A stretch of DNA of 64,000 bases from a virus: positions 62,001 through 126,000 of the IMG/VR virus record IMGVR_UViG_3300033997_000092. One strand, written 5' to 3'. How positions within the stretch are numbered: position 1 is the first letter of the stretch; each line of letters starts with the position of its first letter. Below are positions 1-49,231 of this stretch, in pieces. A model generated the notes under the pieces. That model was not told the origin of the DNA, did not search any database, and worked only from the letters and a program-made list of their open reading frames with translations. Position numbers and translations under genes: made by a program.

Positions 1-1061
1 TCAGACTCCTCTTCTTCCTCGTCTTCGTCTTCTTCATCACCGTCAGAAGCCTGAGCTTCTAAACGTGCCAATTCGGCATCAAGATCAAAGTCGTCTTCGT
101 CGGATGATTCAGATTCCAACTCACCGTCTTCATCTTCGTCTTCATCCAACTCCAGGCCTTCGAGGTCTTCATCATCACCATCGAGATCCAGGTCAGCGTC
201 TTCGTCGTCACCGTCTTCATCATCAGATGAAACTGAGAAAAGTTCTTCCAGTTTATCCATTTCAGCAGACAGAGAATGTAAGCAACCTGAGTCCTGTGGA
301 TCTAACAGGCCGCCGCCACATGAAGGACATACAGTCACATCAGAACTGGTACTTACGATAACATTACCGCAAGTGTCTGAATGAGAACATAAGTACAGGT
401 GGGCTTCAACTTGTTTACCATCAGAGGCTTCTGCTTGGAACGGAGTCTCTGACTCAACTTGTTCCAGGTCGTCCATACCTTCAACTGGGTCAACATTAAA
501 ATGTACCGAGTTGTGGCTAATGAAAGTACCGCTCTCTGAGGTCAGAGTAACAGTGTCTTCACCGCGACAGGCAGCAGCAAAAGAGTCACGCGCTTCTTCA
601 GCAGTAGGAGCAGCTACGATTACGATTGGCTGGTCGGTAGTACCGGCACCAGTTTCACCTTCATCAGAGCTGAGTGCTTCAATTTCAGAATCGCTTAATT
701 CAGGGATTTGGGTGCTGCACTGTGGACAATATTCTAAGTCAGAAGACTCAGAAAGTAAGTGGGCACCGCAACCATCAGCACAGATGGTGTAATTAACTGT
801 CACTTTGTCACCAACAGAGGCTAATGCTTGGAACGGCATATTACCTGTGTAAGGGGTCAAGTCATTCTGACCTGTAAGCGGGTTGTACGGCTCTGTAGCA
901 GAGGCGTGTGTCACGAAAGTGCGTTTATCGCTGTCTTGAAAAACAGCTACACTACCTTCCTGTGCATACGCTACTGCGGCAAACAGGGCCTGCGCTTCAT
1001 GTTTAGAACGACCAGCGACAACGATACCAGAGTTACCTGGTTCCTTTTTACGCTTGATCAT
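1..1061 (-). CDS. Duplicated zinc-ribbon protein with acidic tail (3' end outside window)
   Basis: The reading frame opens at an ATG at 1061 behind an AAAGGAGAAACC ribosome binding site and runs off the window edge without a stop, so the C-terminus is missing. The visible 353 residues contain two homologous units (about residues 11-119 and 144-252). Each begins with a short beta/alpha segment (IVVAG, IVIVAA), continues through a TFV/TFI-SH motif and an MPFQA/TPFQA-EAS motif, and ends in a four-cysteine zinc ribbon (Cys94, 98, 112, 115; Cys225, 231, 245, 248). From about residue 262 the chain becomes a long Asp/Glu/Ser-rich stretch. The role is unknown. Zinc ribbons plus an acidic tail would suit a nucleic-acid- or protein-binding factor, or a scaffold-like protein, but this is inference. 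It is last in the internal-protein block and has its own leader upstream. Confidence 0.8.
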   Translation of the reverse strand, partial: MIKRKKEPGNSGIVVAGRSKHEAQALFAAVAYAQEGSVAVFQDSDKRTFVTHASATEPYNPLTGQNDLTPYTGNMPFQALASVGDKVTVNYTICADGCGAHLLSESSDLEYCPQCSTQIPELSDSEIEALSSDEGETGAGTTDQPIVIVAAPTAEEARDSFAAACRGEDTVTLTSESGTFISHNSVHFNVDPVEGMDDLEQVESETPFQAEASDGKQVEAHLYLCSHSDTCGNVIVSTSSDVTVCPSCGGGLLDPQDSGCLHSLSAEMDKLEELFSVSSDDEDGDDEDADLDLDGDDEDLEGLELDEDEDEDGELESESSDEDDFDLDAELARLEAQASDGDEEDEDEEEEES

Positions 1062-1226: not shown

Positions 1227-1697
1227 TCAGTAAGTTTCGATTGATTTGTAGAATTTTTCAAGTCCTTTTAGATTAGGAGAATATCCATGATCTCCGACCA
1301 TCTTGAAGAACTCTGCATTTTTCAAATCCTTCAAAGGATTGTTTTCGCGTAGCTCACCTTTGGGATGAATATAATCAGCGACGAACGTATCCCAATCGAC
1401 ACCATACGACCGCATTTCTTGAGCAAATATAAAGAACTTTTGCCATTGAGCTTGATCGTCTCCGTTCAGGTCAGTCAACGAATAGTGTTGAATGTCTGAA
1501 TCGGATAGTGGTTTAGGATAAACTACGATGCCGAACCTGTAGCGACTCTCAGGAAGTTTCCTTGTTATCGATTCAGGTATATCAGCAGGAGCTATAAAAC
1601 GTGAGTGACCTTTCGGCTGCGTTCCTAAGCTGAAGGGACGCAAACGCATCCCATACAGGTATTCTTTAGCTTTAGCAATACTGACTAATACGCGCAT
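1227..1697 (-). CDS. Hypothetical protein, 156 aa, in internal-protein cassette
   Basis: I do not recognise this protein with confidence. It starts MRVLVSIAKAKEYLYG; the first six residues loosely resemble the MKxxVxVS beginnings of its upstream neighbours, but it lacks the SES cleavage-like motif. A segment reading YPKPLSDSDIQHYSLTDLN is reminiscent of short modules found in large polyvalent phage proteins, which is only an impression. Its start codon overlaps the stop codon of the 251-aa gene (TAATG), so the two are translationally coupled. It is the last gene before the 1062-1226 regulatory gap. Confidence 0.75.
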   Translation of the reverse strand: MRVLVSIAKAKEYLYGMRLRPFSLGTQPKGHSRFIAPADIPESITRKLPESRYRFGIVVYPKPLSDSDIQHYSLTDLNGDDQAQWQKFFIFAQEMRSYGVDWDTFVADYIHPKGELRENNPLKDLKNAEFFKMVGDHGYSPNLKGLEKFYKSIETY

Positions 1698-2452
1698 TAG
1701 ATTTTATTCGCTATAGTCTTTTTGCGGGCTTTAGAGGCAGCAGCGTCTTTGATTGCTGTTTTAGGATCTGCCTTCAATGCAGCTCTGGCTTTACCTGCTT
1801 CACGTAACTTTTTACTGAAAGCCTTCAACGTACCGAAATTGATTTTAACTGCTTTACCCATAATAGAGCGCATCAGTTTAATCAAACTGTTTTTATGTTT
1901 GATAGGAACTTCTTTACCTGCTATCATTGCTTTCAGAGTATCTTTATCTTGTTTCGTTGCTTCAGGTGCTGCTTTATCTTCAGCAGCAGCTTTGGCGGCT
2001 TTCCCAGGCTTTGTCAAAATAGATGACTTAGAAGGAACTGCCTTAACTGTAACATCGGAGAGCTTCAGTTTTTTATCAGCAGGTAGTGAAAGCTTTTTGA
2101 ATTTAATGGCATCAACAATACCTTTGCGTTCGCCGACAAGTGCAGCAATTGCCTCAGCTATCTCACGGGCCTTCTCATTGTACTGGGCACGTGTGAATTT
2201 AGGTCCGATTTTCTCACGGAGTTTTTGTTTCATAGCAACCAGTTTGGCTTGCTTTTTGATAGTGTCGTTGTATGCTTTAAGTGCCGCAGCAACAACGGCT
2301 TTAGTTTTTGCGTCGGCTTGAGCTTGAACACGTGGATGTACTTTGCGTTTCGCTTTAGGCTTGATACCGCCTTTAACCATACCACTACGCATCTTAGTTT
2401 TTTGTGCTTTTGACGGTCCTGCACTCTCACTAACAAATACTTTGATTTTCAT
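1697..2452 (-). CDS. Putative packaged internal protein with MKIKVFVSES leader, Lys/Ala-rich, 251 aa
   Basis: The protein begins MKIKVFVSESAG, the leader shared by five proteins of this cassette. The remainder is strongly basic and helical in composition, rich in Lys and Ala (for example KKQAKLVAMKQKLREKIG near the middle). It has no recognised enzymatic motif. By analogy with T4 internal proteins, which carry a ~10-residue N-terminal capsid-targeting peptide cleaved after Glu by the prohead protease, I infer packaging into the head and cleavage after Glu9. A basic body would suit DNA binding inside the capsid. A ribosome binding site GGAG lies 7 bases before the ATG at 2452. Confidence 0.8.
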   Translation of the reverse strand: MKIKVFVSESAGPSKAQKTKMRSGMVKGGIKPKAKRKVHPRVQAQADAKTKAVVAAALKAYNDTIKKQAKLVAMKQKLREKIGPKFTRAQYNEKAREIAEAIAALVGERKGIVDAIKFKKLSLPADKKLKLSDVTVKAVPSKSSILTKPGKAAKAAAEDKAAPEATKQDKDTLKAMIAGKEVPIKHKNSLIKLMRSIMGKAVKINFGTLKAFSKKLREAGKARAALKADPKTAIKDAAASKARKKTIANKI

Positions 2453-2476
2453 ACGAAAACTCCTTTAATATGTAGA

Positions 2477-2770
2477 TTATTTCTTGTTTGGTAAAAGGCG
2501 TAGTAATGAACGTACAGCCTCAAGCTCTGCCTTAACTGCTTGTAATTTTTTACCTTTAGGTTTTTCTTCTTCGAGAATATCGAGTAATTCATTTTCTCGG
2601 TCACTTAGCCGTACGAATCCTTTTCCTTCAAGAGAAGGGAATTTGGATAGTATAACTGCTTTCATTGATGCTTTGCGACGTTTCAACATTTCAGCATTAG
2701 TTAATGGCTTAGCTGCTATAGTTGGTTTTTTCGGAGCAGAACTTTCACTCACAAATATTTTGATTTTCAT
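2477..2770 (-). CDS. Putative packaged internal protein with MKIKIFVSES leader, 97 aa
   Basis: This short basic protein starts MKIKIFVSESSAPKK, matching the shared leader except Ile for Val at position 5. The remaining ~85 residues are Lys/Glu/Leu-rich and probably helical, with no recognised domain. The leader matches those of its neighbours at protein level while third codon positions differ (for example GTGAGTGAAAGT against GTTAGTGAGAGT), which argues for selection on the peptide and not a very recent DNA duplication. The small size is typical of T4-type internal proteins. The function after removal of the leader is unknown. Confidence 0.8.
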   Translation of the reverse strand: MKIKIFVSESSAPKKPTIAAKPLTNAEMLKRRKASMKAVILSKFPSLEGKGFVRLSDRENELLDILEEEKPKGKKLQAVKAELEAVRSLLRLLPNKK

Positions 2771-2783
2771 GTTATGCTCCAGT

Positions 2784-3215
2784 TCAACTAAATTTAAGAA
2801 TGTTGTTTATGTGTTCTTCGTAATTGCTGATGCCAACAATTACAAATTCTTCCAATGCGAACGCAGCTTCAGCGAAAGTTTTTACAGGTATTTCTTTGAC
2901 GAATTTCCTGTCTTCGACCAGATACGCTTTTTTGGTATCACTAATGTAAACAATAGCATTCAAAGGATAGACTATATTACCAACAAGAGATTTACCGATG
3001 TAGTATGTTCCTATGACTACTGCTTTACTTCTAATGCCTTTATTAGGACCATCAATTTGAGCCGGGTATTTATGTGCCGCAGTTACTTTGGTTGTAAATT
3101 CGTTTTTAGTATCTAGTGCTTTATCAATAGCAAACTTACGGACCATTTGCATAGCAAGTTGTATTCCTGTCTTTGAAGAACTGGAACTCTCACTCACGAA
3201 TACTTTGATTTTCAT
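2784..3215 (-). CDS. Putative packaged internal protein with MKIKVFVSES leader, 143 aa
   Basis: The protein starts MKIKVFVSESSSSSKTG, so the leader is followed by a Ser-rich linker and then a compact alpha/beta-looking domain of about 120 residues. I recognise no family. The linker straight after the predicted cleavage point (Glu9/Ser10) fits a removable N-terminal tag on an independently folding cargo. It sits between two other leader-bearing genes, with 8- and 13-base gaps, in one transcription unit. Confidence 0.8.
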   Translation of the reverse strand: MKIKVFVSESSSSSKTGIQLAMQMVRKFAIDKALDTKNEFTTKVTAAHKYPAQIDGPNKGIRSKAVVIGTYYIGKSLVGNIVYPLNAIVYISDTKKAYLVEDRKFVKEIPVKTFAEAAFALEEFVIVGISNYEEHINNILKFS

Positions 3216-3223
3216 GCAAACTC

Positions 3224-3952
3224 CTAGTCTAAATTGATAGTTGATTTAATATCAGGGTGCCAACCTTCACGACGAACCATAGCTACAGCATTTACTTCCG
3301 GGTGCCATGCGTATTCGCCTATGTCACCTGTGGTAGGATCGACGTTGTCCCACCGCAGCACTACTTGGTTACCATTAGCCTGTTTACGTACTATGTCTGC
3401 ACTGTACCTTCCAGGATTAATCTTCATCGCAGTCTTTATAGACATAGGGACTTCGATTGTCCTGACATACATTGAAGTGTTCTTACCTATAAGCATCCTT
3501 TCATGTATATAAGGTGAGCTTTCAACATAGATACGAATTGCGTAGTCCGATGCTTGATCTTTCTTGCTTAACAGCAGTTTAAAGATAGTGGCATGTGCTC
3601 CTGCTGTTTTAGGATTAAATACACGTACACCATGTTCGTTCTTACGCAAGTTCTCGACCAGCTTAGCTACGATCTTAGGCATATAGGCAGGTACACTGTG
3701 TTTTTCCACTATACGATTGTACATGGTTTCAGATACCGTGAAGCGCCAAGGAGAAGTTCCAAATAAAACAACAACACCGTATCCTTTATCATCGTTAGCT
3801 AATAAGAATGTGGAACCCTTAGATATTCCATGTACGTGTACGCTGTCTTCGATAGGAATTAGGCGTACTGCTTTGCGGAACATTAAACCGTCAAACTCGT
3901 CCGATTTACGTAATTGGACGGCGCTCTCGCTTACAAACACTTTGATTTTCAT
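3224..3952 (-). CDS. Putative packaged internal protein with MKIKVFVSES leader, 242 aa
   Basis: The protein begins MKIKVFVSESAVQLRK, with the shared leader and predicted cleavage after Glu9. The body has a mixed alpha/beta composition with many Tyr, Val and Arg residues and a Trp-containing C-terminal segment (WDNVDPTTGDIGEYAWHPEV). No catalytic motif or family was recognised. It lies directly downstream of the metalloprotease gene (10-base gap), so the two are probably co-expressed late and packaged together; that is inference from the shared leader and operon. Confidence 0.8.
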   Translation of the reverse strand: MKIKVFVSESAVQLRKSDEFDGLMFRKAVRLIPIEDSVHVHGISKGSTFLLANDDKGYGVVVLFGTSPWRFTVSETMYNRIVEKHSVPAYMPKIVAKLVENLRKNEHGVRVFNPKTAGAHATIFKLLLSKKDQASDYAIRIYVESSPYIHERMLIGKNTSMYVRTIEVPMSIKTAMKINPGRYSADIVRKQANGNQVVLRWDNVDPTTGDIGEYAWHPEVNAVAMVRREGWHPDIKSTINLD

Positions 3953-3962
3953 ACAAGGTTCC

Positions 3963-4946
3963 TTATTTATTCGAGGGCTTACCGTTCTTCAAATAGTTAT
4001 TCTGGAAATACTCTTGAGCTATTTCCCATCCAAGAGGAGTAACGAGTCCACGCGCAGACGTGCCGTGCACCATATACTCACAAAGAACCGCCCACGCTTC
4101 TGACGACCACGGATTGCTATATCCTGGATGTTCAAACTGGTCAGGATGCAATTCTTTATTCTCAGAATACATACGCTTGAATTTTGTTACGTCAGTTTGT
4201 TTGACAATACCTGAGTACCACATATAGTGGGCAAGTTCGTGTGTTATAGCCTGTGCCACAATCTTTGTATCTAACACACCGCCGTTAATCTGAGTAAGTT
4301 GTCCACGATTGATAATCAGGAACGACTTACTACGCATCTGGTTAGCTTGCGTTATAATACTGATCATCGTAGCATAGTCAAAACTTTCAGCTAAATACAA
4401 ACGACTTCCTTTATAAGGAACGATTGATCCAGTATGCTTTAGTGCCTCAGTTACCATATCGAGAATGTCTGGCTGTATCGGATAGATAAGGGCCGTCTTA
4501 CCTGACTTAGATCTGAATCTAGTCGGATTCGGCAGCATCTGTATTGGAATCGGAACGGACGTTTTTCCTACGATAGGGCGATTGTTAATCTTCTTTGGTA
4601 CAGATAGCTTCAATCTTTCACTTGGCGCATTGGCAGGTATTACTGATTTAGGCATAACAGGCAGCGCTGGACTATCTGCTTTATTATCCGGTGTAGCCTC
4701 AGACAACGATTCTTGTTTGATTCGTTCTGTTGTCAGTGTAGGAAGCGTCGGCATATTTGTCATAGGACGTGATTTTGCCAGAATAGATTGCAGTACATCT
4801 TCCTTTATAGGAGTAGGCACTAACTGTCCATCGAGACCTAGACAGAATGCTTTGGCCTTATACAAGGCATAGTAGATTTGTCGTGGATTAAGAGTTACTT
4901 GCCCTACTTTGATAGGCGCAGAGTCTAAATATCTGAAATAAAACAT
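3963..4946 (-). CDS. Putative zinc metalloprotease (HELAH), 327 aa
   Basis: I chose the ATG at 4946 because it follows a GGAAG ribosome binding site and because an in-frame upstream start at 5018 would fall inside the terminator hairpin of the preceding gene. The protein has an N-terminal domain (about 1-55), a Pro-rich linker (about 65-145) and a C-terminal domain carrying HELAH (about residues 236-240), the HExxH signature of zinc-dependent proteases. A Glu in SSEAW about 45 residues later could be the third zinc ligand, as in gluzincins. A possible prohead-protease site, SLSE-A, lies near residue 83, where cleavage would release the catalytic half. It sits among the leader-bearing genes, so it may be a capsid-packaged enzyme delivered to the host. 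The substrate is unknown. Confidence 0.72.
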   Translation of the reverse strand: MFYFRYLDSAPIKVGQVTLNPRQIYYALYKAKAFCLGLDGQLVPTPIKEDVLQSILAKSRPMTNMPTLPTLTTERIKQESLSEATPDNKADSPALPVMPKSVIPANAPSERLKLSVPKKINNRPIVGKTSVPIPIQMLPNPTRFRSKSGKTALIYPIQPDILDMVTEALKHTGSIVPYKGSRLYLAESFDYATMISIITQANQMRSKSFLIINRGQLTQINGGVLDTKIVAQAITHELAHYMWYSGIVKQTDVTKFKRMYSENKELHPDQFEHPGYSNPWSSEAWAVLCEYMVHGTSARGLVTPLGWEIAQEYFQNNYLKNGKPSNK

Positions 4947-5008
4947 GGTTAAAGCTTCCAGAGTGTATTTGCTATAAATTACTGTTCTGTAGGCAATGGA
5001 AATGAAAA

Positions 5009-5029
5009 CGGCTGACAAAATGCCAGCCG
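5009..5029 (-). terminator. Rho-independent-type terminator after 298-aa gene
   Basis: On the minus strand a hairpin with a CGGCTG/CAGCCG stem (5029-5024 with 5014-5009) and a 9-base loop is followed by GTTTTCATTT. It begins 8 bases after the stop of the 298-aa gene and lies 62 bases before the metalloprotease start. Confidence 0.7.
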
Positions 5030-5036
5030 AATCATA

Positions 5037-5933
5037 TTATGCACGTTTGGCTTTAGCAAAAGCCGATGCGTCACTTGGACTGAGTGAAACGTAAGTGTCG
5101 CCCAGTTTGACAATAACTGTAGAGCCGCCCATAACACCTTGAGCTTTAACAACTGCTTTTTCGCCAAGTGTATCAGTGAACCATTTAGCGGCGCTGTCCA
5201 GGGCTGCTTCACGGGAAGCTTTTTGGGCATCCTGAATACCGGAAATGATTTTCTGCTGGGCTGCAATAGATTTGATGTGCTGTTTGATAGCAGATTCGGC
5301 AACCATCATTTCTTTTTCAACGGCAGCCGGTAATACGCCTTTGGCATACACAGGCAGCAACAGGCGAACAGTAGCGCTAAGCTTAGAACGTAATGCAATT
5401 TTAACTGCACGACGAGCTAAGTAAGTAGTGCTTTGGCCTTTCTTGCCTGCTTGTTTTGAAGCATCAAAGTCAACAACCTTTGACTTGGCGGAAACAACAT
5501 AATACTTTTCAGGCTGAGGTTTAAGTGAGCTTGATACCAACGATGTAACTTGTTTGATAATCGCCGAAGCTGCTTTACCTACACCGTTTACAACAACAGT
5601 GATAACCAAAGTCTTTAAGTCAGGGCCAGTTTTGCGTTTCTTCGCTGTAACAGTAGGTTTAGCAGAAGCTATACCTTCAATAGCAGTGATAGCTTTGGCA
5701 ACAACACGGCCTTCTTTCAAACCTAAACCAGGAACTGTATAAACCAATTGGGTAGAAGTTTTAGCTGGCTTGACTTTTGGTTCGTGTGTAAAATCCGACG
5801 CAGCTTTTTCTATCTTTTTGGACAAAGCAGCCAGAGCAGTTTGATTAACGAAGCCGTCCTTTGCAACAACTGACGCACTCGTTGAAACCAAAGCGCCTTG
5901 CAATGGGTCCAAAGCTAATGTCACTTTCATCAT
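5037..5933 (-). CDS. Hypothetical Lys/Ala/Val-rich protein, 298 aa, probable virion or internal protein
   Basis: The ATG at 5933 follows AGGGGAATA; an earlier in-frame start at 5978 would lie upstream of a hairpin and has no ribosome binding site. The protein starts MMKVTLALDPLQGALVSTSA and is rich in Lys, Ala, Val and Ser throughout, with no recognised domain. A MMVAESAIK segment resembles the proposed prohead-protease motif (hydrophobic-V-x-E-S), which is weaker evidence than the exact VSES sites elsewhere. A C-terminal segment (GGSTVIVKLGDTYVSLSP) looks like a short beta hairpin. It lies inside the leader-bearing cassette and is closed by a terminator, so a structural or packaged role is plausible but unproven. 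Confidence 0.75.
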   Translation of the reverse strand: MMKVTLALDPLQGALVSTSASVVAKDGFVNQTALAALSKKIEKAASDFTHEPKVKPAKTSTQLVYTVPGLGLKEGRVVAKAITAIEGIASAKPTVTAKKRKTGPDLKTLVITVVVNGVGKAASAIIKQVTSLVSSSLKPQPEKYYVVSAKSKVVDFDASKQAGKKGQSTTYLARRAVKIALRSKLSATVRLLLPVYAKGVLPAAVEKEMMVAESAIKQHIKSIAAQQKIISGIQDAQKASREAALDSAAKWFTDTLGEKAVVKAQGVMGGSTVIVKLGDTYVSLSPSDASAFAKAKRA

Positions 5934-5952
5934 TATTCCCCTAAGTAGAGAA

Positions 5953-5976
5953 GGGTGAGACTGATGTATCTCACCC
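5953..5976 (-). other. 8-bp hairpin just upstream of the 298-aa gene
   Basis: A perfect inverted repeat GGGTGAGA / TCTCACCC with an 8-base loop lies 20 bases before the ATG at 5933. It is followed on the minus strand by TTCTCTAC, which is not a clean U-tract. It could be a weak terminator, an RNA stability element or an RNase processing site. Confidence 0.55.
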
Positions 5977-5983
5977 AAACAGT

Positions 5984-6040
5984 TTAATTACCACCACCGC
6001 CACCAACACGGCAACGGCGACTATCATATACACCAGGCAT
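5984..6040 (-). CDS. Possible micro-gene, 18 aa (MPGVYDSRRCRVGGGGGN)
   Basis: An 18-codon frame begins at an ATG preceded by TAGGAG at a 7-base spacing, a good ribosome binding site by the standard of this genome, and ends at TAA. The peptide has an Arg/Cys-rich middle and five consecutive glycines. It lies in the otherwise non-coding gap between the 298-aa and 258-aa genes. It may be a real small peptide, a leader peptide, or chance; nothing beyond the ribosome binding site and position supports it. Confidence 0.3.
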   Translation of the reverse strand: MPGVYDSRRCRVGGGGGN

Positions 6041-6170
6041 AGCCAACTCCTATAGTTGCAGTTGAATCGTTACGCTATGTAACGGAGCCCAACGCTCTCC
6101 TACAGTCTTTAACGTGGCGTAGTGTCCACGAGATATGGATCACCTCCTACCTTGTGGAAAATTCAACAGA
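6041..6170 (-). promoter_or_regulatory. Structured leader with an extreme Shine-Dalgarno-like sequence
   Basis: At 6137-6148 the minus strand reads AGGAGGTGATCC, an exact complement to the usual 3' end of bacterial 16S rRNA (GGATCACCTCCT). No long frame follows. The nearest starts are a GTG at 6129 giving a six-codon frame and a GTG inside the motif (6143) giving 22 codons. Further along are an imperfect hairpin and an inverted repeat CGTTAC/GTAACG (about 6064-6080). It may be a translation-control leader or small RNA, but no function can be assigned from sequence. Confidence 0.4.
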
Positions 6171-6947
6171 TTAGCTGTACTTCTTTTCAGCTTCTTTACT
6201 GACGAAGAACCAAGCTTTACCTTTAATCGATTGTTTGGTAATCGGATTTGTCGAAGCAAACGTCATAACGCGAGTTTTCTTTTTACCTTCAACAGCGTAA
6301 ATACTTCCAGATGACGTCAATTGAGGACGGACATTACGCGCTGCTTTCAACGAAGGCTTGACTGTCTTTTCTTCACCTGCACGTAAAGGCTTGGTGACTT
6401 CAACTGAGAAATAAATGCCTTTCTCCGCAAGCTGCATTTCTTTAGCTTTAGTTGATTGTTTTGCCGTGATAGCAGCCTGCTTATTAAGCTTACTTTGTAA
6501 AGCTTCGCGTTTAGATTGCAGCTCCGCTATTTGAGCATCAAGATCGCGGATAGATTTTCTCACATTTACGTCTTGTGCTTTTTCACCAACAGCATCACCA
6601 AAGCGTATAGCGCGTGAAGGCTTACCGTCGGTTGTTTTTGGAATAGGAGCAGCTAAGAGTTTCGCAAGCTGTGTCGGCGTAAACTTAGCTTCTTTTTTAG
6701 ATCCGACAGTTGTTTTCTCACCGCGCTGCATAACATAGGCCCACTCGGTAGAAACTGACTTAATCGAACCTGATTTAGTCAGCTCGACATCAGTTATAGT
6801 GTGTTGTATTTTACTTTTGTAGAATGGTGAGCCGCGTTTAATAAGTTGGCCTACCTTATGCTCAATTAGTTTTGCACCTATCACAATTTTCTTTGTTTGC
6901 GCAGGAGTAAACCCGGCCGATTCGCTGATCATGACATTGATTTTCAT
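6171..6947 (-). CDS. Putative packaged internal protein with MKINVMISES leader, 258 aa
   Basis: The protein starts MKINVMISESAGFTPAQ, the most diverged copy of the shared leader (N for K at 4, M for F at 6, I for V at 7), keeping the S-E-S core. The body contains a predicted coiled coil (DLDAQIAELQSKREALQSKL, around residue 135) between Lys/Thr-rich regions. The AGFTPAQ that follows the leader resembles AGPSKAQ in the 251-aa protein, hinting at common origin of the N-terminal ~20 residues. An AAGGATTAACA ribosome binding site precedes the ATG. The cargo function is unknown. Confidence 0.8.
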   Translation of the reverse strand: MKINVMISESAGFTPAQTKKIVIGAKLIEHKVGQLIKRGSPFYKSKIQHTITDVELTKSGSIKSVSTEWAYVMQRGEKTTVGSKKEAKFTPTQLAKLLAAPIPKTTDGKPSRAIRFGDAVGEKAQDVNVRKSIRDLDAQIAELQSKREALQSKLNKQAAITAKQSTKAKEMQLAEKGIYFSVEVTKPLRAGEEKTVKPSLKAARNVRPQLTSSGSIYAVEGKKKTRVMTFASTNPITKQSIKGKAWFFVSKEAEKKYS

Positions 6948-6963: not shown

Positions 6964-7569
6964 TTATTTCAATGCAGCACTTTTAGTACCTTTTGCCGAT
7001 TTCAATGAAGCCTTCTCGCCAGTCAACAATTTCAGCAAAGCACTGGCAGACATATCCATCAATTCACGTTTACGTGATTTCGGCAAACGCTCGATAACAA
7101 CCTTCTTCAACTTACCTGCAGAAGTTACTTCGATTGAATCGATAGCATATTCATTTTTTATAAGCTGCGGAGTGGATTTATTATCTGATTTACGGACATA
7201 AGCCGACGTCATTGTGATGATAAGCTTTGTTGATTTATCCTGGAGCTTTTTACGTTGAACAGGAGTAAAGCGATCATCGGTCAATTCTGTCTTGCTAGAA
7301 CGTGCGGATTTGGATGGTTTAGATCCAGAAGAACCACGAATACCTGCTTTACGCACTAAGGTAAGTGTAACTGACATTCCTACAGTTGTCTCGCCTAATG
7401 CGCTAGTAAGTTGAGGATAATCAGTTACCTTAACATCGAACTTATCAATGTCATAGGCATCTGAATTCTTCTCAACAAGACCAGATAAAGCTTTTACGGC
7501 CTTAGCCTCAATATCTTTGTGGAGTTGGCGCTGGCCGGCAGCAGAATTTAAAGAAACTAAAACTTTCAT
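6964..7569 (-). CDS. Hypothetical basic protein of the internal-protein cassette, 201 aa
   Basis: The ATG at 7569 follows GAGGTAGGTG (a GTG one codon earlier is possible). The protein starts MKVLVSLNSAAGQRQL, which keeps the hydrophobic MKVxVS pattern of the leader family but lacks S-E-S. The body is Lys/Ser-rich, with a central Gly/Ser/Lys linker (about 88-100), and has no recognised domain. It lies immediately downstream of the candidate prohead protease gene, sharing its transcription unit. Its N-terminus may be a relative of the cleavable leader or just a beta strand. Confidence 0.75.
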   Translation of the reverse strand: MKVLVSLNSAAGQRQLHKDIEAKAVKALSGLVEKNSDAYDIDKFDVKVTDYPQLTSALGETTVGMSVTLTLVRKAGIRGSSGSKPSKSARSSKTELTDDRFTPVQRKKLQDKSTKLIITMTSAYVRKSDNKSTPQLIKNEYAIDSIEVTSAGKLKKVVIERLPKSRKRELMDMSASALLKLLTGEKASLKSAKGTKSAALK

Positions 7570-7572
7570 CAC

Positions 7573-8367
7573 CTACCTCGCCTTCATTATTTGGGAATGT
7601 AAGTGTTGGTTACTTACATAAGCTGGATTGTCCACATGGCTACACTCAAAGCCAGTCGCATCATGGCAACGGCGATACACTAACAAGTCCTGCAACGAGT
7701 AAGGGCGTTTACCCAGTCGAGTATGCTGACAGAAGTGTAATGTATCTTGGGTAGTCACATGGCCACAGAAGCTACAGGTGTATGAAGTGTAATAGAAGCC
7801 AACACTGTGAGTATTCACTTTGTCGGTCAGAATTTCATTACACAGTTTGCTGTCACGCGAACGGTCGTAACCAAGTAACATCATAAGCTTAGCATGTTTA
7901 CCATGAAATCCAGGAAGAGCTTTAACATAACTGTCAAAGATAATACCTTTTGCTTTGGTATAGTCTTTGTTGTCATGTTCTTTGTGTGTAGGTTTGCCTT
8001 TGAATGTTTTATACATCGGCATACCATAACGCGGTTTGAAATCTAGTAATTCCCGCACACTCAAGCTATCGCCGTTTGTGTTAGGAATGTCTGTTATCAG
8101 TGCTGGAACAGGAACCAATATGTAGTCACGTATATCAGGACTGATGTTGTACTTCTCAGCCGCAGAAGGAAGCCATGCGTTAATATCAAGCACGACTCCT
8201 TCACCACCGCCGACCATACTCGGTTTGACCTGAATCTCTTTTGAAGTACGAGAGAACTGGTTTAGCTCTACAGCTTTACCTTCTCCGGCACTACGGTCAT
8301 AAAAACTGCTGATGTCAAATGCAGGAGCAAACAAATCACCATCAGCACTACGAGGAAAGTTCTGCAT
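7573..8367 (-). CDS. Candidate prohead (head maturation) serine protease with zinc motif, 264 aa
   Basis: Several elements match phage prohead proteases of the His-Ser type. NTNGDSLS (residues 96-103) fits the NxNGD entry motif. TFKGKPTHKEHDNKD (121-135) carries the candidate catalytic His128 or His131. GIIFDSY (141-147) fits the following strand. NTHSVGFYY (185-193) places a candidate nucleophile Ser188 in the usual S-[IV]-G-F context. Unusually, a zinc-binding CSFCGH...HFCQH motif (Cys198, Cys201, Cys213, His215) follows directly. Such enzymes cleave scaffold and head proteins in the assembling capsid. The gene is embedded among proteins with repeated VSE-S motifs, the likely substrates. 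The ribosome binding site is weak, and the frame starts two bases after the stop of the 168-aa gene. Family assignment is from motifs only. Confidence 0.6.
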   Translation of the reverse strand: MQNFPRSADGDLFAPAFDISSFYDRSAGEGKAVELNQFSRTSKEIQVKPSMVGGGEGVVLDINAWLPSAAEKYNISPDIRDYILVPVPALITDIPNTNGDSLSVRELLDFKPRYGMPMYKTFKGKPTHKEHDNKDYTKAKGIIFDSYVKALPGFHGKHAKLMMLLGYDRSRDSKLCNEILTDKVNTHSVGFYYTSYTCSFCGHVTTQDTLHFCQHTRLGKRPYSLQDLLVYRRCHDATGFECSHVDNPAYVSNQHLHSQIMKAR

Positions 8368-8369
8368 AA

Positions 8370-8876
8370 TTAGTCCGCCGTTAAATATACCTGACGTTCA
8401 GTAAGGCGCTGACGCTCTGTACGTAAACGGTTGTTAGGAGTATGGTAATTGCCATCAGTGTCTTGTATAAGAGCACCAATATCACGACCACGATATGACT
8501 GCGGGAAGTTATCACGTAAAGCGCACAGGAAATTGTAGAAGCGCTCCACTTCCGACTTCTTCTTGCCTATCCGTGCAAGGAAACGGACTTCAGGCTGCAG
8601 GTTCTCTAACAGCGTGACGATTGCCTGGTAGATATATTGGTGCTGCTGTTCATCAGGACGAGTAACGAAGCGCTCTACAGCAACTTTAAGGTAGTTTACG
8701 TCATTGTTTAAACGGCCAAACACCGTAGACCGTACGTTGTTATTGTATGCACCCGTAGTAGCAAGAATGTCCATGCACTGCTGCACACGCTGGCTTACCA
8801 AGTCCGCAAGCTGAGAATAAGGCATCACTGCGTCCTCAGTCACTACACGTGGATTGATTGTTATTTGGCATTTCAT
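8370..8876 (-). CDS. Hypothetical protein, 168 aa
   Basis: I do not recognise this protein. It begins MKCQITINPRVVTEDAVM, a short strand followed by VVTE-D that could be a variant of the proposed protease site, although the second residue and the residue after Glu differ from VSE-S. The rest is predicted mostly helical, with many Arg, Gln and Leu residues and a C-terminal Arg/Thr-rich segment. It overlaps the end of the 443-aa gene by 4 bases (ATGA-type) and precedes the candidate prohead protease, so a head assembly role is plausible. Confidence 0.75.
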   Translation of the reverse strand: MKCQITINPRVVTEDAVMPYSQLADLVSQRVQQCMDILATTGAYNNNVRSTVFGRLNNDVNYLKVAVERFVTRPDEQQHQYIYQAIVTLLENLQPEVRFLARIGKKKSEVERFYNFLCALRDNFPQSYRGRDIGALIQDTDGNYHTPNNRLRTERQRLTERQVYLTAD

Positions 8877-10204
8877 AAGAATTTCTTCTCCACATTAGCC
8901 CGTACCCAAGAACAACATTCATTGAAAGTCATAGGGACAGGATGTATTAATTGGACACCAGATTCACGAACTAACGTGTATGGCTGATTTTCTATTCTAC
9001 CACTGTGGAAAGCAGATTCATCGAAACCATCACGCAGCAATATATGCCAAGCACGACGATTGAATCCGCCTTTATTGCCGTTAGTGTCAAGTGTGCCGAT
9101 AATACGGTCATTAAAACGTATATCGTATCTTGTACGCTGTGCAAGAGGCAGACGAGCCATAGTTGAATTTACTTTGAATGACAGGCGAGGTCTAACAGCG
9201 GATTCAGACACCATTTCATCTGATTCAACATCGTCACTTTCTTCGTCACCAGTTTCTTCTTCGTTTTCTTGTTGAGCAGCAGCAAGCACTTCATCCAAAT
9301 CTTCTTGGCTGTACTGAGAAGTATCTGGCTTCCAGCCTTCTTCTTGCATTTGATAGATTGCTTGGAAACGAGCAACACGCTCTGCAATGCCATCAAGGTC
9401 TTGGTTACCTGCCCACAAAACGAATTCATCAAGCATAACACTGACTGGGTCATTTTCAGTATCGTTAGATTCTGATACCATGTCGGGATCTGCTACTTCA
9501 TCCAACTGTCCAGTGCCTTCAAGGGCCTCTGAAGGATTTTTGTAACCGAAGAACGCTCCGGCTAACGCACCAGCAACAGGAGCAAGTCCAGCAGCAACAG
9601 CTCCGACAGCAGCAGTACCAAGAAGCGTTTTAGTTGCATAGAAGGTTATCTTGTGTGCCAGATACTTACCACGCTGGTGTTCTTCTGTTACACGGTCTTC
9701 TTTCTTAGCATCGATATAATTGCCTAAAGCTTTTATGTTCTCTGGGCTAAGGCGCTGGCTGATATATTCAGTGGCACCACGTATATTATTTGCTAAAGCT
9801 AAAACGCCTTTGGCCAGACGGCTCTTGACATCAGGCAGCATAGATTCTGCGCGACGGTCTTCTTCCTTTCTGGCCAGCTTTTCATTTATTACTGCAATGA
9901 GGCCGCCGGATATAGGCAAGCCTCCAGTTGACTTACGTTGAATCTTTTTGTCGCGTTTATCCAGAGGAACCTTGTCACGATATTGTTTATTCAGGTCCTC
10001 AAAAGAAACACTCTTGCCTGAACCTGACGGCTTATCGTCATCTTCTTCAGGCTCACCAGAAGCTCCTGGAGGCTTTTGGTAAAGCTTCATCCTAGAGCGT
10101 TTATGTCGCGCTAAGTATGCTTGTTGCTCTTTATACGATTTGCGTCTCCACCACGCAGGAACATCTTCTTGCGATAAGGAGACAAGATCAAGAGTTATTC
10201 GCAT
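8873..10204 (-). CDS. Probable head or scaffold-type protein with two VSES cleavage motifs, 443 aa
   Basis: The ATG at 10204 is preferred because it gives MRITLDLVSLSQEDVP, similar to neighbouring N-termini, behind an AGGAAAA element; a start at 10249 would overlap the upstream gene by 62 bases. Order of regions: a WWRRKSYKEQQAYLARH segment (about 16-32), which resembles motifs in phage head/core proteins, a basic and acidic linker, an Ala/Gly hydrophobic stretch (about 200-225) that could insert in or contact a membrane, an acidic region, and a C-terminal domain of about 110 residues. Two MVSES sites occur, encoded at 9468-9479 and 9200-9211. Cleavage at both would release an acidic ~90-residue peptide and the C-terminal domain. 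Function is inferred from motifs and neighbours. Confidence 0.75.
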   Translation of the reverse strand: MRITLDLVSLSQEDVPAWWRRKSYKEQQAYLARHKRSRMKLYQKPPGASGEPEEDDDKPSGSGKSVSFEDLNKQYRDKVPLDKRDKKIQRKSTGGLPISGGLIAVINEKLARKEEDRRAESMLPDVKSRLAKGVLALANNIRGATEYISQRLSPENIKALGNYIDAKKEDRVTEEHQRGKYLAHKITFYATKTLLGTAAVGAVAAGLAPVAGALAGAFFGYKNPSEALEGTGQLDEVADPDMVSESNDTENDPVSVMLDEFVLWAGNQDLDGIAERVARFQAIYQMQEEGWKPDTSQYSQEDLDEVLAAAQQENEEETGDEESDDVESDEMVSESAVRPRLSFKVNSTMARLPLAQRTRYDIRFNDRIIGTLDTNGNKGGFNRRAWHILLRDGFDESAFHSGRIENQPYTLVRESGVQLIHPVPMTFNECCSWVRANVEKKFL

Positions 10205-14734: not shown

Positions 14735-16480
14735 CTAGCTCACAATAGGATCGGAGGACCGTTTAAACTTAACTACGTCAGCCTGTACGTCTTTGAATTC
14801 CTTAGGAGTAAGTTTCCTGACGATCTTAACAGAGTCAACAAACTTAGCTTTCTTAGTCGTATCAATGCGTACAGTGTGGTACTCGCTAGGTTCATTGGTC
14901 AAGTCATAGACTTTGTACACGGTGACGTTGTTGTTTGCTGGAAGTGGATAGATGTCAAGGACCACGAACTCACGTTGCTCTGTGGTATCTTTGTTGAAGA
15001 CAACCACATCACCTTCCTCTGCTTCTGCTGATTCTTCTTCCTCTTCAGGTTCTTCCTCAACATCAGCATCCTCTAAATCCGCGCCGTCTTCATCGTCCTC
15101 GTCTGAGTCTTCGTCGCCGGCATCTTCTTCATCCGTGTCAGTATCTTCTTCAGATTCTTCATCCTGTTCGTCCGTGTCCTCGTCGGCGCTTTCTTCTTCC
15201 TCTTCCTCAGAGTCGTCAGATTCTTCGTCATCGTATTCCAATTCAGATTCATCTACTTCTTCCTCTTCTTCATCGGAAGCATCGTCCTCTAAATCTTTGA
15301 GGTTAGCCTTACGGGCTTCAGCGCGTTTCTTGTCGATAACTTGATCTAACAAGGACAATGGGTCAACTTCACCATCAGATAAACTGTCCACAGCTGGATC
15401 AAATTGGAATTGTTCAGTAGGACCGGATTGCTCCTGTGGAGTGTCCAAATCAAGGTCTGTATCAAGGGCATCGTCATCAAATTCCACTACTTCTGGAACA
15501 TCACGTTTCAGTTTCTTTTGTTGTTCTTCTTTTTGAGCCTTTAACAGCTCTTTGAGTTTTTCGTCTGTCATAACAATCGGAGTAGATCGGCGCTTGGATT
15601 CCTTGATTGCATAGGCAGCGGCCGATTCTTTTAAACGCTGTTTTTCGTCCAAGCGCTTCTTACGAGCTTCGGCACGGGCCTGTTTAGCAAGTTCGCGTTC
15701 TTTCTCCTGTTGTTTTTCTTTTGCTTCACGATCTTTAGCCGCAGCTATTTCACGTGCCTGACGTCGTTCAGATACGGCCTCACGGTGATTCTGCTTTTTG
15801 TTATTGCGGCGAATCTGTTTGAGTTCTTCGACAGTAAACTTACCTGTAGGCCATTTGGTCTTAGGTAAGACTTCTGTGTTCTCAAGCATCGGGCCCCAAG
15901 TATCAGGATTTATTACCCAACGGCGGCCTTCAGTATCCATATAAATGCCGCCCTTTGTAGGAGCAACATAACGGACACCGAACACATCTCCACGATTAAT
16001 AACGTGGAACAAATCGCGTGTTTTGCCTATCTTCAAAGGCTTGCTGCCAGTGTATTTACGCCACTGATAGTTTGCTAAATCCACACCTTTAGTGCTTTCG
16101 TCGTATAGCTTACGTGCTGGTTTGAAGTAATCAGAGTCCCACGCACGGCGCTCAACAAGTTTAGTTCCTTGTAAGTTTCTTGGAGCACGTTGTCTGCCTT
16201 CACGGACATTAACCAGTTTAGGCTTTTTGATCTCGTCACTGCGAGAAGTCAGGAATTCCATTTCCTCAGGTTCAATTGTGAAATTGACATGATACAGGTC
16301 AGGCAGTATGACGTAAAAACGACCGCCTTTGATAGGCCGAATACCGTACACACTACCATTACTGATCTCAGCAGCAGATCCGTGGGTTACCAACTTACGT
16401 TTGGTACGTCCACTGTACTGATACCAGCTAAACTTATCCAATTCTTCAAATTTGGCTGATAACGCCACGAATCTAAGCAT
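14735..16480 (-). CDS. Repeat-containing charged protein with long acidic tract, 581 aa
   Basis: This protein is not a recognised family. It has two related N-terminal modules: one around 17-67 (FSWYQYSGRTKRKL ... NGSVYGIRPIKGGRFYVILPD) and one around 137-197 (YQWRKYTGSKPLKI ... RGDVFGVRYV ... WVINPD). Then come a Lys/Arg/Glu/Gln-rich helical region likely to be a coiled coil (about 220-320), a very acidic Asp/Glu/Ser stretch (about 390-500), and a small C-terminal domain. A VSE-R site occurs in the basic region. Such highly charged proteins are often scaffold, head-core or inner-body proteins in large phages; that is inference. The ribosome binding site is AGGAG with ATTGAA spacing. Confidence 0.75.
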   Translation of the reverse strand: MLRFVALSAKFEELDKFSWYQYSGRTKRKLVTHGSAAEISNGSVYGIRPIKGGRFYVILPDLYHVNFTIEPEEMEFLTSRSDEIKKPKLVNVREGRQRAPRNLQGTKLVERRAWDSDYFKPARKLYDESTKGVDLANYQWRKYTGSKPLKIGKTRDLFHVINRGDVFGVRYVAPTKGGIYMDTEGRRWVINPDTWGPMLENTEVLPKTKWPTGKFTVEELKQIRRNNKKQNHREAVSERRQAREIAAAKDREAKEKQQEKERELAKQARAEARKKRLDEKQRLKESAAAYAIKESKRRSTPIVMTDEKLKELLKAQKEEQQKKLKRDVPEVVEFDDDALDTDLDLDTPQEQSGPTEQFQFDPAVDSLSDGEVDPLSLLDQVIDKKRAEARKANLKDLEDDASDEEEEEVDESELEYDDEESDDSEEEEEESADEDTDEQDEESEEDTDTDEEDAGDEDSDEDDEDGADLEDADVEEEPEEEEESAEAEEGDVVVFNKDTTEQREFVVLDIYPLPANNNVTVYKVYDLTNEPSEYHTVRIDTTKKAKFVDSVKIVRKLTPKEFKDVQADVVKFKRSSDPIVS

Positions 16481-33703: not shown

Positions 33704-34207
33704 TCATGTTGTTAATACTTGGAACCTAGATTCTACAGTTGATTCGCCTACCATATTTCTTATGGCGTCCAATATAGAATGATCGGTATATTGAAAGAAA
33801 TAGAATGCCATCAGTAGAGGATTGTGGCATCCACGATTTAAACATTTGCGTACATGATTGTAAATCTGCTGGCGCAATTCACCTGAAGCAAGTTCATCTT
33901 TGAAAGCGAACATTTCATCAGGACCAAGAGCGTGGTTAGATACAAACAGCACGTACAAGGAACAGCTACGTGTCAGCATACGAAGCAGAGCATGATAATC
34001 AACATCATGCTGTCCAGCAAAGAAAGTTGTTATGCGTGGGAGTCGTTGCGAATATTCCGTGATAGCGCACGACTCAATTGCGTGGTGTGAAGAATACACA
34101 TTGACTATACCAAAATCCAAAGCGGACTGCACAAGAAGATGAGGCTGCGCGGGCATTCCAATCTTCTTGAATGTACGTGAAAGTGTCACGTTTGAATAAC
34201 CAAACAT
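33704..34207 (-). CDS. Hypothetical protein, 167 aa
   Basis: The ATG at 34207 lies directly after the stop of the 228-aa gene (TAATATG) and follows GGAAATG; an earlier start at 34264 would overlap that gene by 56 bases. The protein begins MFGYSNVTLSRTFKKIG and contains several Cys and His residues, including CLNRGCHNPLL near the C-terminus, but no ordered zinc motif. I recognise no family. It is coupled to the degenerate ATPase-like 228-aa protein. Confidence 0.7.
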   Translation of the reverse strand: MFGYSNVTLSRTFKKIGMPAQPHLLVQSALDFGIVNVYSSHHAIESCAITEYSQRLPRITTFFAGQHDVDYHALLRMLTRSCSLYVLFVSNHALGPDEMFAFKDELASGELRQQIYNHVRKCLNRGCHNPLLMAFYFFQYTDHSILDAIRNMVGESTVESRFQVLTT

Positions 34208-34208
34208 A

Positions 34209-34895
34209 TTACATTTCCATAATGTTGATGCGATTATCGGAACCCAAACGCACAGCTCCATCAATAGGATAAAACACGCGGCGCATCATAAATGATATTG
34301 GGTCCTCACCAGCAGTAACTACAATACGAGGTATGTTATCAAACACATCCAAAATATCACGAAGCCTTTCAGCTTTATGCTGTGACGATTCATCATTTAT
34401 GTTTGATATGACGAGCATACACGGATTGGAGTCTTTTATTGTTTTGATTTGGTCGAAATCGCCAGAGCCAAGTATTCGTACCCACAAAGGTAATGAACGA
34501 CCACGGCGTTGTTGAGCTGTTAAATCAGACCAATCGATAGATGCTTGTGCCATGAGGCCGGCTGCATACATCTTGGCGCGAGTGTCAGTAGGAAACGAAT
34601 TTACTACAAACACTCCATTTTTCTTCAACGGATTCTTAAACAGCTTGTGAGTCACATCAATTTGTTTTTGAGTACCATGGCGCCGGGTAACAACGTCTTT
34701 TACTGTAGGTTTGAAATGGGTAACCACTTCATCCACAAGGAAAGTGGCACGCTTGTTAGCAAGCACAAGTCTGTCCATACCACGTGTAAGAAGCAGCTTC
34801 TCCAAATCTTTGTCGAAATTGGTCGATATTTCTATAGGAGGACGGCCTTTACTATCTAAGCCATCCTCTTCTATTTCTTTGGCTTTCTTTGTCAT
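34209..34895 (-). CDS. Hypothetical protein with AAA+-like C-terminal half lacking a P-loop, 228 aa
   Basis: The C-terminal half (about 135-225) has the order of a DnaC or IstB-type AAA+ core after the Walker A: a strand and acidic residues NPCMLVISNINDES in the place of Walker B, then RLRDILDVFDNIPRIVVTAG as the sensor-1 strand, then a final RRVFYPIDGAVRL. No GxxGxGK[ST] P-loop exists, so it would not bind ATP conventionally. It could be an inactive loader or adaptor; this is a fold impression only. A CTGTAAATAC promoter-like motif lies 25 bases upstream of its ATG, the same signal as the polymerase and clamp loader, which supports a replication-related role. Confidence 0.65.
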   Translation of the reverse strand: MTKKAKEIEEDGLDSKGRPPIEISTNFDKDLEKLLLTRGMDRLVLANKRATFLVDEVVTHFKPTVKDVVTRRHGTQKQIDVTHKLFKNPLKKNGVFVVNSFPTDTRAKMYAAGLMAQASIDWSDLTAQQRRGRSLPLWVRILGSGDFDQIKTIKDSNPCMLVISNINDESSQHKAERLRDILDVFDNIPRIVVTAGEDPISFMMRRVFYPIDGAVRLGSDNRINIMEM

Positions 34896-34904
34896 AGTGC
34901 ATAT

Positions 34905-34931
34905 CCAGTTGATATACTATGTATTTACAGT
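34905..34931 (-). promoter_or_regulatory. Candidate phage promoter upstream of the 228-aa gene
   Basis: The minus strand reads AACTGTAAATACATAGTATA, with CTGTAAATAC at 34930-34921. The identical 10-mer occurs at matching distances upstream of the polymerase and clamp loader genes. It starts one base after the stop of the helicase gene, with no terminator in between. Confidence 0.6.
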
Positions 34932-48715: not shown

Positions 48716-49231
48716 TTACATATAATGCTGAGACCAGAGTGGAATAGGCGTCAATTCATTGGACGTAGCCCAATCGATAAGATGGCGTCCATAGATACGG
48801 CGCTTCTGGACAGAGTACGTTGACCAACGATCACTGTCTCCGTAGAAAGACAAGACTGTCGCACTATCCATCTTATCTAATGTATTTACAATTTCCTCGC
48901 GGATACGGTTTTCAGCATCAGCTTCAGATATTGTAACCATAGGGTCAGCAGGCACATCCACTTCAGAATTGCCTCTGTCTAATAGTTCAGCAATAACCTC
49001 TACTAAGCTATCTACAGTAGTTAGGTCTTCATACGACCTGCCTAAACGGACAGGCGAAACACCGTGCTTAACAAGAGCAGCAACAATGTCCTGAGACTCA
49101 CTGCTTTCACTTACCATGCTGGGACTGTCGAGTGCCTGACGTGCCAGCATTCCAGCAAGTCCAGGTTTCTCAGACAGAGTTTGCAAAGCAGAGACAGGAG
49201 CCGTACCTAATGTAATGGTCGTCTTCTTCAT
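48716..49231 (-). CDS. Hypothetical protein with VSES and ISEA protease-like sites, 171 aa
   Basis: No family recognised. The N-terminal ~40 residues end in SMVSESSES (VSES encoded at 49103-49114), the same MVSES core as in the 443-aa protein and similar to the shared leader. A second possible site is VTISEADAE near residue 102. Cleavage would give a ~65-residue central fragment and a C-terminal domain ending in WATSNELTPIPLWSQHYM. The match suggests it is processed by the same protease and therefore assembled in the head. It immediately precedes the giant helicase gene. Confidence 0.75.
   Translation of the reverse strand: MKKTTITLGTAPVSALQTLSEKPGLAGMLARQALDSPSMVSESSESQDIVAALVKHGVSPVRLGRSYEDLTTVDSLVEVIAELLDRGNSEVDVPADPMVTISEADAENRIREEIVNTLDKMDSATVLSFYGDSDRWSTYSVQKRRIYGRHLIDWATSNELTPIPLWSQHYM

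Follow-up and report, generated by a model that had tools for sequence, protein, structure and literature searches.

A shared ten-residue leader on unrelated proteins beside the prohead protease of a jumbo phage is a candidate capsid-targeting sequence

The capsid-targeting sequence (CTS) of phage T4, reportedly the work of Mullaney and Black, is a short N-terminal tag on internal head proteins. We compared it and other described systems with a ten-residue leader, MKIKVFVSES, in the IMG/VR virus record IMGVR_UViG_3300033997_000092 (261,032 bases), of which positions 62001-126000 were analyzed as one window of 64,000 nucleotides. In this window, five minus-strand open reading frames (ORFs) adjoining the prohead protease gene were found to begin with MKIKVFVSES or a close variant. 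The ten residues are probably a capsid-targeting leader that is removed by the neighboring prohead protease, following the logic of the T4 CTS with a different sequence.

In T4, the CTS is carried by the internal proteins and Alt and is removed by gp21 (PMC5694885). The layout of the leader resembles that of this tag, which is short (10-20 residues), stands at the N-terminus of unrelated internal proteins and ends in a protease site, for which the leader has a candidate; the Glu-bearing leaders also have a hydrophobic P3 before x-E. The leader is likewise common to unrelated proteins, five here and six with the strict pattern in the relative L019, and the window phage's prohead protease is assigned to the head maturation protease family phrog_18299. 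In contrast to T4, the leader is of a beta type, M-K-I-x-V-x-V followed by S-x-S-A, with a Glu that is not obligatory in relatives, and the putative cargo is variable and without family match, with DarA_C or topoisomerase IB in some cases. By analogy, the leader may work like the T4 CTS; membership in that class is not claimed.

The Dar system of phage P1 also relies on N-terminal targeting of head-interior proteins, and the P1 prohead protease removes the N-terminus of DarA, an internal head protein that undergoes proteolytic processing, belongs to an anti-restriction system and contains the DarA_C domain (PMC9024508, PMC12810830). DarA_C directly follows the leader in one protein here (g156) and its orthologs, whereas it is C-terminal in P1 DarA, and the DarB signal differs in being between 9 and 30 residues and shown for one protein. 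Inspection of the N-termini of P1 DarA, DarB, DdrB, DdrA, Hdf and Ulx revealed no shared motif like MKIxVxVSES and no likeness of the leader to DarA or DarB, and among 34 ORFs from 40 kb of P1 none had the leader pattern. In the jumbo phages SPN3US and phiKZ, ejected proteins have N-terminal propeptides cut by the prohead protease (gp245 and gp175, respectively; PMC10052503, PMC5694885). Ser is preferred at P1' and Val at P4 in SPN3US, which the leader may share, and its paralogs gp53 and gp54 have an identical 15-residue N-terminus. However, the cuts fall after A-x-E (SPN3US) or S/A/G-x-E (phiKZ), while P3 here is V/I/L or R/K, and SPN3US propeptides are mostly >100 residues long, in contrast to a ~10-residue leader on many unrelated proteins. 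The polyvalent proteins (Iyer et al. 2017, PMC5512222), with DarA among the starting exemplars of that study, are similarly predicted to be injected and are encoded among virion genes, but their activities are fused in one polypeptide, unlike the separate small tagged proteins here. In the published literature that we searched, subscription papers being outside its scope, a tag of this kind was not described for this lineage, and the study of the Dickeya relatives by Day et al. 2018 contains no virion mass spectrometry.

The leader as a shared module

The five leader genes and the protease gene lie in the window as follows.

1697..2452, minus strand: g251, 251 aa, MKIKVFVSES-AGPSKAQK..., basic, lysine/alanine-rich
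2477..2770, minus strand: g97, 97 aa, MKIKIFVSES-SAPKK...
2784..3215, minus strand: g143, 143 aa, MKIKVFVSES-SSSSKTG...
3224..3952, minus strand: g242, 242 aa, MKIKVFVSES-AVQLRK...
6171..6947, minus strand: g258, 258 aa, MKINVMISES-AGFTPAQ...
7573..8367, minus strand: prohead (head maturation) protease, the predicted processing enzyme (phrog_18299, E 1.4e-86)

The wording is MKIK[V/I]FVSES in four proteins and MKINVMISES in the fifth; all five ORFs start with ATG and have a purine-rich (GGAG/AAGGA-type) sequence just upstream. An earlier note on this DNA had described five genes of these lengths with a shared leader and full divergence behind it, and the mean pairwise nucleotide identities bear this out: 0.31 over the 30 nt upstream, 0.78 over codons 1-10 and 0.32 over codons 11-30. 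Its statement that the peptide, not the DNA, is conserved was mostly right. The flanking DNA is indeed unaligned, but the same synonymous codon was found at identical residues in 42 of 74 comparisons, whereas codon usage predicts 27.7. The peptide is thus the conserved entity, and the DNA retains some common ancestry. The strict pattern occurred at 3 of 624 candidate starts (an undercount, as the gene caller missed g97 and g143) versus 0.007 in shuffled N-termini, and a chance origin is therefore excluded. Family searches with the five proteins gave no Pfam or PHROG family passing the curated cut-off and no usable match. In an AF2 model of g258, residues 1-10 had no secondary structure and a mean predicted local distance difference test (pLDDT) score of 26, within a low-confidence model (mean pLDDT 56); the AlphaFold model of g156 was also of low confidence (mean pLDDT 44), and the two models lend weak support to one point, that residues 1-10 of g258 may be unstructured.

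A search with the leader pattern across this genome and related jumbo phages placed it on further genes in both. Looser leaders that the note had missed occur elsewhere in the same genome: MRVLVSIAKAKEY, MKVLVSLNSAAG, MRIFVSLSAEQ, MRIFVSLSKAD, MSIKLLMLSLSASKK and MTLLSQSAVSS. The window holds the following variants.

1227..1697, minus strand: g156, variant leader MRVLVSIAK followed directly by DarA_C (residues 11-77, E 2.8e-12)
5037..5933, minus strand: g298, variant N-terminus MKVTLALDPLQGALVSTSASVV, a weaker case
6964..7569, minus strand: g202, variant leader MKVLVSLNSAAG, with partial matches to L019/L020 leader proteins
14735..16480, minus strand: 581-aa KMPT-N domain protein, variant leader MLRFVALSAKF

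Residues 96-202 of g202 match residues 26-132 of one L019/L020 leader protein (56%), and residues 32-76 match the C-terminus of another, which shows domain shuffling behind the tag. Orthologs of g156 start with MLISISLGK, MKLLISLSNQ or MEIFISLSAPQ. The looser leaders head a DarA_C protein, a KMPT-N protein and a topoisomerase IB, and the tag is outside all three recognized domains: DarA_C begins at residue 11, KMPT-N at residues 17-20 and the topoisomerase IB domain at ~residue 300. A leader that formed part of a conserved folded domain, the outcome that the earlier note had named as telling against it, was not what we found. The topoisomerase IB-like protein with the start MTLLSQSAVSS (Pfam Topoisom_I, E 3e-16) lies at genome positions 33956-35605 (L007:13956-15605, minus strand), and in NCTB and L023 topoisomerase IB-type proteins are encoded close to the protease. 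Two neighboring small genes at a distance from the head cluster (genome 233049-233336 and 233347-233766) both start with MRIFVSLS and then diverge.

The head genes of the window phage place the genome near Phage NCTB, Lu11, PaBG and the Dickeya and Erwinia jumbo phages, a set named the Lupandier group (PMC7412058). In these relatives, a wider pattern, M-K-h-x-h-x-h followed by S-x-S-A, was found on many unrelated proteins; its carriers are metagenomic contigs, Phage NCTB and the Erwinia and Dickeya jumbo phages, with weaker forms in PaBG and Lu11. In particular, L019, whose protease is 62% identical, has six different genes in the same place with leaders of the strict pattern (MKIKVFVSQSS, MKIQVMLSESA, MKIKVFISSSN, MKVNILISESA, MKIRVFTSTSA and MKIRVFISESS). 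Shorter leaders such as MKVFLSES, MKIFISQSG, MYIQILSESA and MKIVSISA occur in L021, L022, L023 and NCTB. The L019/L020 ortholog of g258 is 34% identical overall and keeps the leader as MKIQVMLSESA, and a weak relative of g242 in L022 also bears a leader at its start (MKINLLESSSATK). In PaBG, the virion protein of unknown function gp83 starts with MLIKINLLEAVAAK, a loosely similar N-terminus, and LNSLSAA occurs close to the start of gp202, a virion protein of 221 kDa. When public viral contigs were searched with the exact leader as degenerate DNA, matches were confined to this genome with its fragments and one related genome (two contigs); the exact wording is therefore clade-specific, the wider pattern having been found by synteny. 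It is thus directly shown that unrelated proteins encoded beside the protease have the leader in common as a module, that relatives conserve it and that it lies outside known domains.

Several otherwise different leader proteins (L019:7718-9415, L019:12977-13579, L021:8122-9294, L022:7318-8715 and L002:9503-10954) share a motif, WWKK(L)S...YI(K/E)xHPxSKYA, after the leader. This motif may be a second docking element.

The end of the leader as a candidate processing site

The end of the leader, [VIL]SES[AS], was present at 8 distinct places in the predicted proteome versus 0.87 in shuffled proteins (nine were counted, one duplicated by overlapping pieces): the five leaders and three further proteins, which look head-related.

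1..1061, minus strand: acidic protein of 700 aa, of which the window holds the N-terminal half; LLSESS and ELESESS repeats (genome 60959-63061; the gene runs on outside the window)
8873..10204, minus strand: g441, two genes upstream of the protease, leader-like start MRITLDLVSLSQED, MVSES twice
48716..49231, minus strand: 171-aa protein, MVSESS at residues 39-44, its gene next to a 1928-aa helicase-like gene

The acidic protein has 5 SES versus 0.48 expected and, over its whole length, three ELESESS repeats (DEDEDGELESESS repeats). Its gene lies a short way upstream of the capsid gene, in the position expected for a scaffold/core gene, and the protein is a candidate scaffold/core protein and protease substrate. 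The second MVSES of g441 immediately precedes a conserved C-terminal domain. In the g441 family, S[ED]S[AGS] or SLSA stands directly before this domain in 23 of 23 distinct ortholog windows versus 0.5 expected, while the 12 residues further upstream held no S-x-S in any of 20 windows; g441 offers the clearest test, as homology rather than Met1 fixes the position of its site. Additionally, capsid-protein homologs have VSES at residues ~64-67 in Dickeya JA29 and Yersinia Yen9-02 and HSxS in the Erwinia phages, located where the propeptide junction is expected; the PaBG capsid protein loses ~20% of its mass on maturation (PMC7412058). In relatives, the protease itself has S-x-[SA] (S-x-S in several) just before a conserved FD near its N-terminus. 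By these comparisons, S-E-S-(A/S) is supported as a processing motif.

Where the cut would fall is a separate matter. In T4 and in the jumbo phages with known proteases, the cut follows a Glu and P3 obeys a rule of its own. The leader, V-S-E↓S, fits the T4-like L/I-x-E type of rule with its hydrophobic P3, but the P3 residue is Val or Ile, which does not agree with the S/A/G-x-E or A-x-E rules of phiKZ and SPN3US; the phiKZ parallel that the earlier note had drawn is thus lost, and the T4 rule is the closer one. At internal sites, P3 is mostly Val, Leu, Glu, Arg or Lys. In relatives, even in close orthologs, Q, S, T, L, V, A or N can take the place of the Glu while S-x-S-A is kept; orthologs of the tail-region KMPT-N gene, for example, read SESA, STSA, SASA, SVSA and SLSA. 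Cleavage after Glu9, as the note had inferred it, is not upheld by this variation, and strict Glu-dependent cleavage was rejected as a universal rule for the group. Two bonds are candidates for the cut, the one that follows Glu9 (V-S-E↓S) and the one that follows Ser10 (S-x-S↓A). Because relatives replace the Glu but keep S-x-S-A, a Ser10 cut or a non-obligatory Glu is possible, and a P3-x-P1 rule of [S/A]-x-[S/A] with a cut after Ser10, which the A-x-A of PaBG and Lu11 also suits, would fit at least as well as V-S-E↓S. The most useful correction is to restate the motif as a short hydrophobic strand that leads into S-x-S-A, common to a phage group and with Glu optional.

Packaging and cleavage weighed against other readings

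We infer the following course of events for a cleavable capsid-targeting leader. The short alternating hydrophobic strand M-K-I-x-V-x-V would dock the protein onto the scaffold/core or the capsid-protein propeptide inside the assembling prohead; S-E-S-(A/S) after the strand would be the recognition site of the neighboring prohead protease, which would remove the leader on head maturation; and the cargo would be retained in the head, from which it would probably be ejected together with the DNA. A cleavable packaging leader, which the earlier note had proposed, is the best reading because the four residues at its end are found again at other candidate protease sites in the products of head genes; the module on unrelated proteins beside the protease also stands, and the exact cut is less secure.

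Several observations weigh against this reading. Its case in the window phage is drawn from gene sequences. PaBG gave one doubtful loose pattern match in ~150 kb, and Lu11 has only the looser A-x-A form (MKVYLAIAASP); the A-x-A forms read NLAEAAN in PaBG and LAIAAS in Lu11. Many leaders of relatives are without Glu, a poor fit to the Glu-specific cutting in T4, phiKZ and SPN3US. The KMPT-N gene with a leader-shaped start stands among tail-tube genes, and the tag may not be exclusive to the head interior. Finally, VNEG takes the place of VSES at the presumed junction of the window phage's own capsid protein, and APA-FD is found near the N-terminus of its protease; the capsid and protease sites are for this reason supportive, not decisive. 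The capsid junction, a Ser/Ala-rich linker with VNEG in the window phage, was downgraded as proof of the motif.

That the leader is a packaging signal left uncut, or cut only in its Glu forms, with S-x-S-A as a flexible docking element, is unlikely, though of the alternatives it survives best. The free variation of x among close orthologs with S-x-S-A kept and the common Glu-free leaders of relatives are what it would lead one to expect, and SPN3US leaves ~80% of its head proteins uncleaved (PMC10052503). S-E-S-A, however, recurs at the domain boundary of g441 orthologs, away from Met1, and the acidic protein has several S-E-S-type sites, which is how a protease site would be expected to behave. 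An activation propeptide or maturation site only, keeping the cargo inactive until the head matures and having no role in prohead targeting, would agree with SES in the presumed scaffold, g441 and the capsid-protein sites, none of them N-terminal leaders. We consider this improbable: a pure cleavage site would not need the M-K-I-x-V-x-V strand that is conserved across unrelated cargo, and the loss of ten residues would hardly unmask several unrelated proteins.

Starts of the MKIxV type are common in ordinary proteins, and the DNA identity of codons 1-10 is somewhat above the codon-usage prediction, as would be the case if the leader were a 5' coding segment, recently copied, that aids the initiation of translation, or a beta-strand start MKIxVxV arising by chance, without any part in packaging. 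Such an origin is very improbable given that the upstream DNA is unshared (0.31 identity), that the peptide pattern persists in relatives whose proteins are ~34-62% identical and that the SES tail is over-represented both in head-related genes and at internal positions. An export signal cut by host signal peptidase, suggested by Lys2, the hydrophobic stretch and an S-x-S or A-x-A before Ala that resembles the -3/-1 rule, as in the Lu11 and PaBG forms given above, can be practically dismissed, as the stretch of ~five residues, broken by Lys4, is too short for a signal peptide and lacks the uninterrupted hydrophobic core (~7-15 residues) of a Sec signal, and the same motif lies inside g441 and the presumed scaffold.

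For the cleavable leader, the DarA_C- and topoisomerase-type cargo and the N-termini of PaBG gp83 and gp202 make packaging of the tagged proteins likely and their injection plausible. A part in host takeover, as the earlier note had suggested, would draw for its support on the DarA_C and topoisomerase domains and on gp83. A bolder form is possible but doubtful: the leader would be a standard exchangeable cargo tag, any protein with M-K-h-x-h-x-h-S-x-S-A being loaded into the head and trimmed, the protease rule having moved from x-x-Glu to [S/A]-x-[S/A], and a scan for the tag would list the group's delivered effectors.

Neighboring head genes and implications

The leader-gene cluster is bounded by the prohead protease on one side and on the other by head-shell genes: that of the acidic protein and, just beyond the window, those of a structural protein and the capsid protein. 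Nine genes lie between the protease and the acidic protein here versus one in the annotated Dickeya, Erwinia and Yersinia relatives. One further gene of the cluster is kept directly after the protease in nearly all relatives.

3963..5018, minus strand: g327, HELAH motif, metallopeptidase-like by eye, without leader in the window copy

The g327 N-terminus, of W[FY]RYLG type, resembles KMPT-N. We also observed that the gene at the position of the acidic protein is labeled 'ATPase' in Lu11 and the Erwinia, Dickeya and Yersinia relatives, and that the prohead protease is annotated as 'endolysin' in the records of Phage NCTB (L002:11947-12729) and Yoloswag (KY448244). In Yersinia fHe-Yen9-02, the annotated start (10516) of the gene upstream of the protease (L003:10291-11334) is probably too far downstream; the longer ORF begins with MKMLISLSQTPVWW, as in Yoloswag (L047).

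The proteins taken into host cells by jumbo phages mostly lack a recognizable sequence. A tag readable from the genome would turn many late genes of unknown function into testable candidates for early anti-defense or takeover proteins, and it would offer a packaging handle in a lineage without a described one in the literature searched. From the motif, processing sites can be predicted in the capsid, scaffold and protease of this phage group, and the tag would give a way to list the proteins that the virus may deliver into its host.

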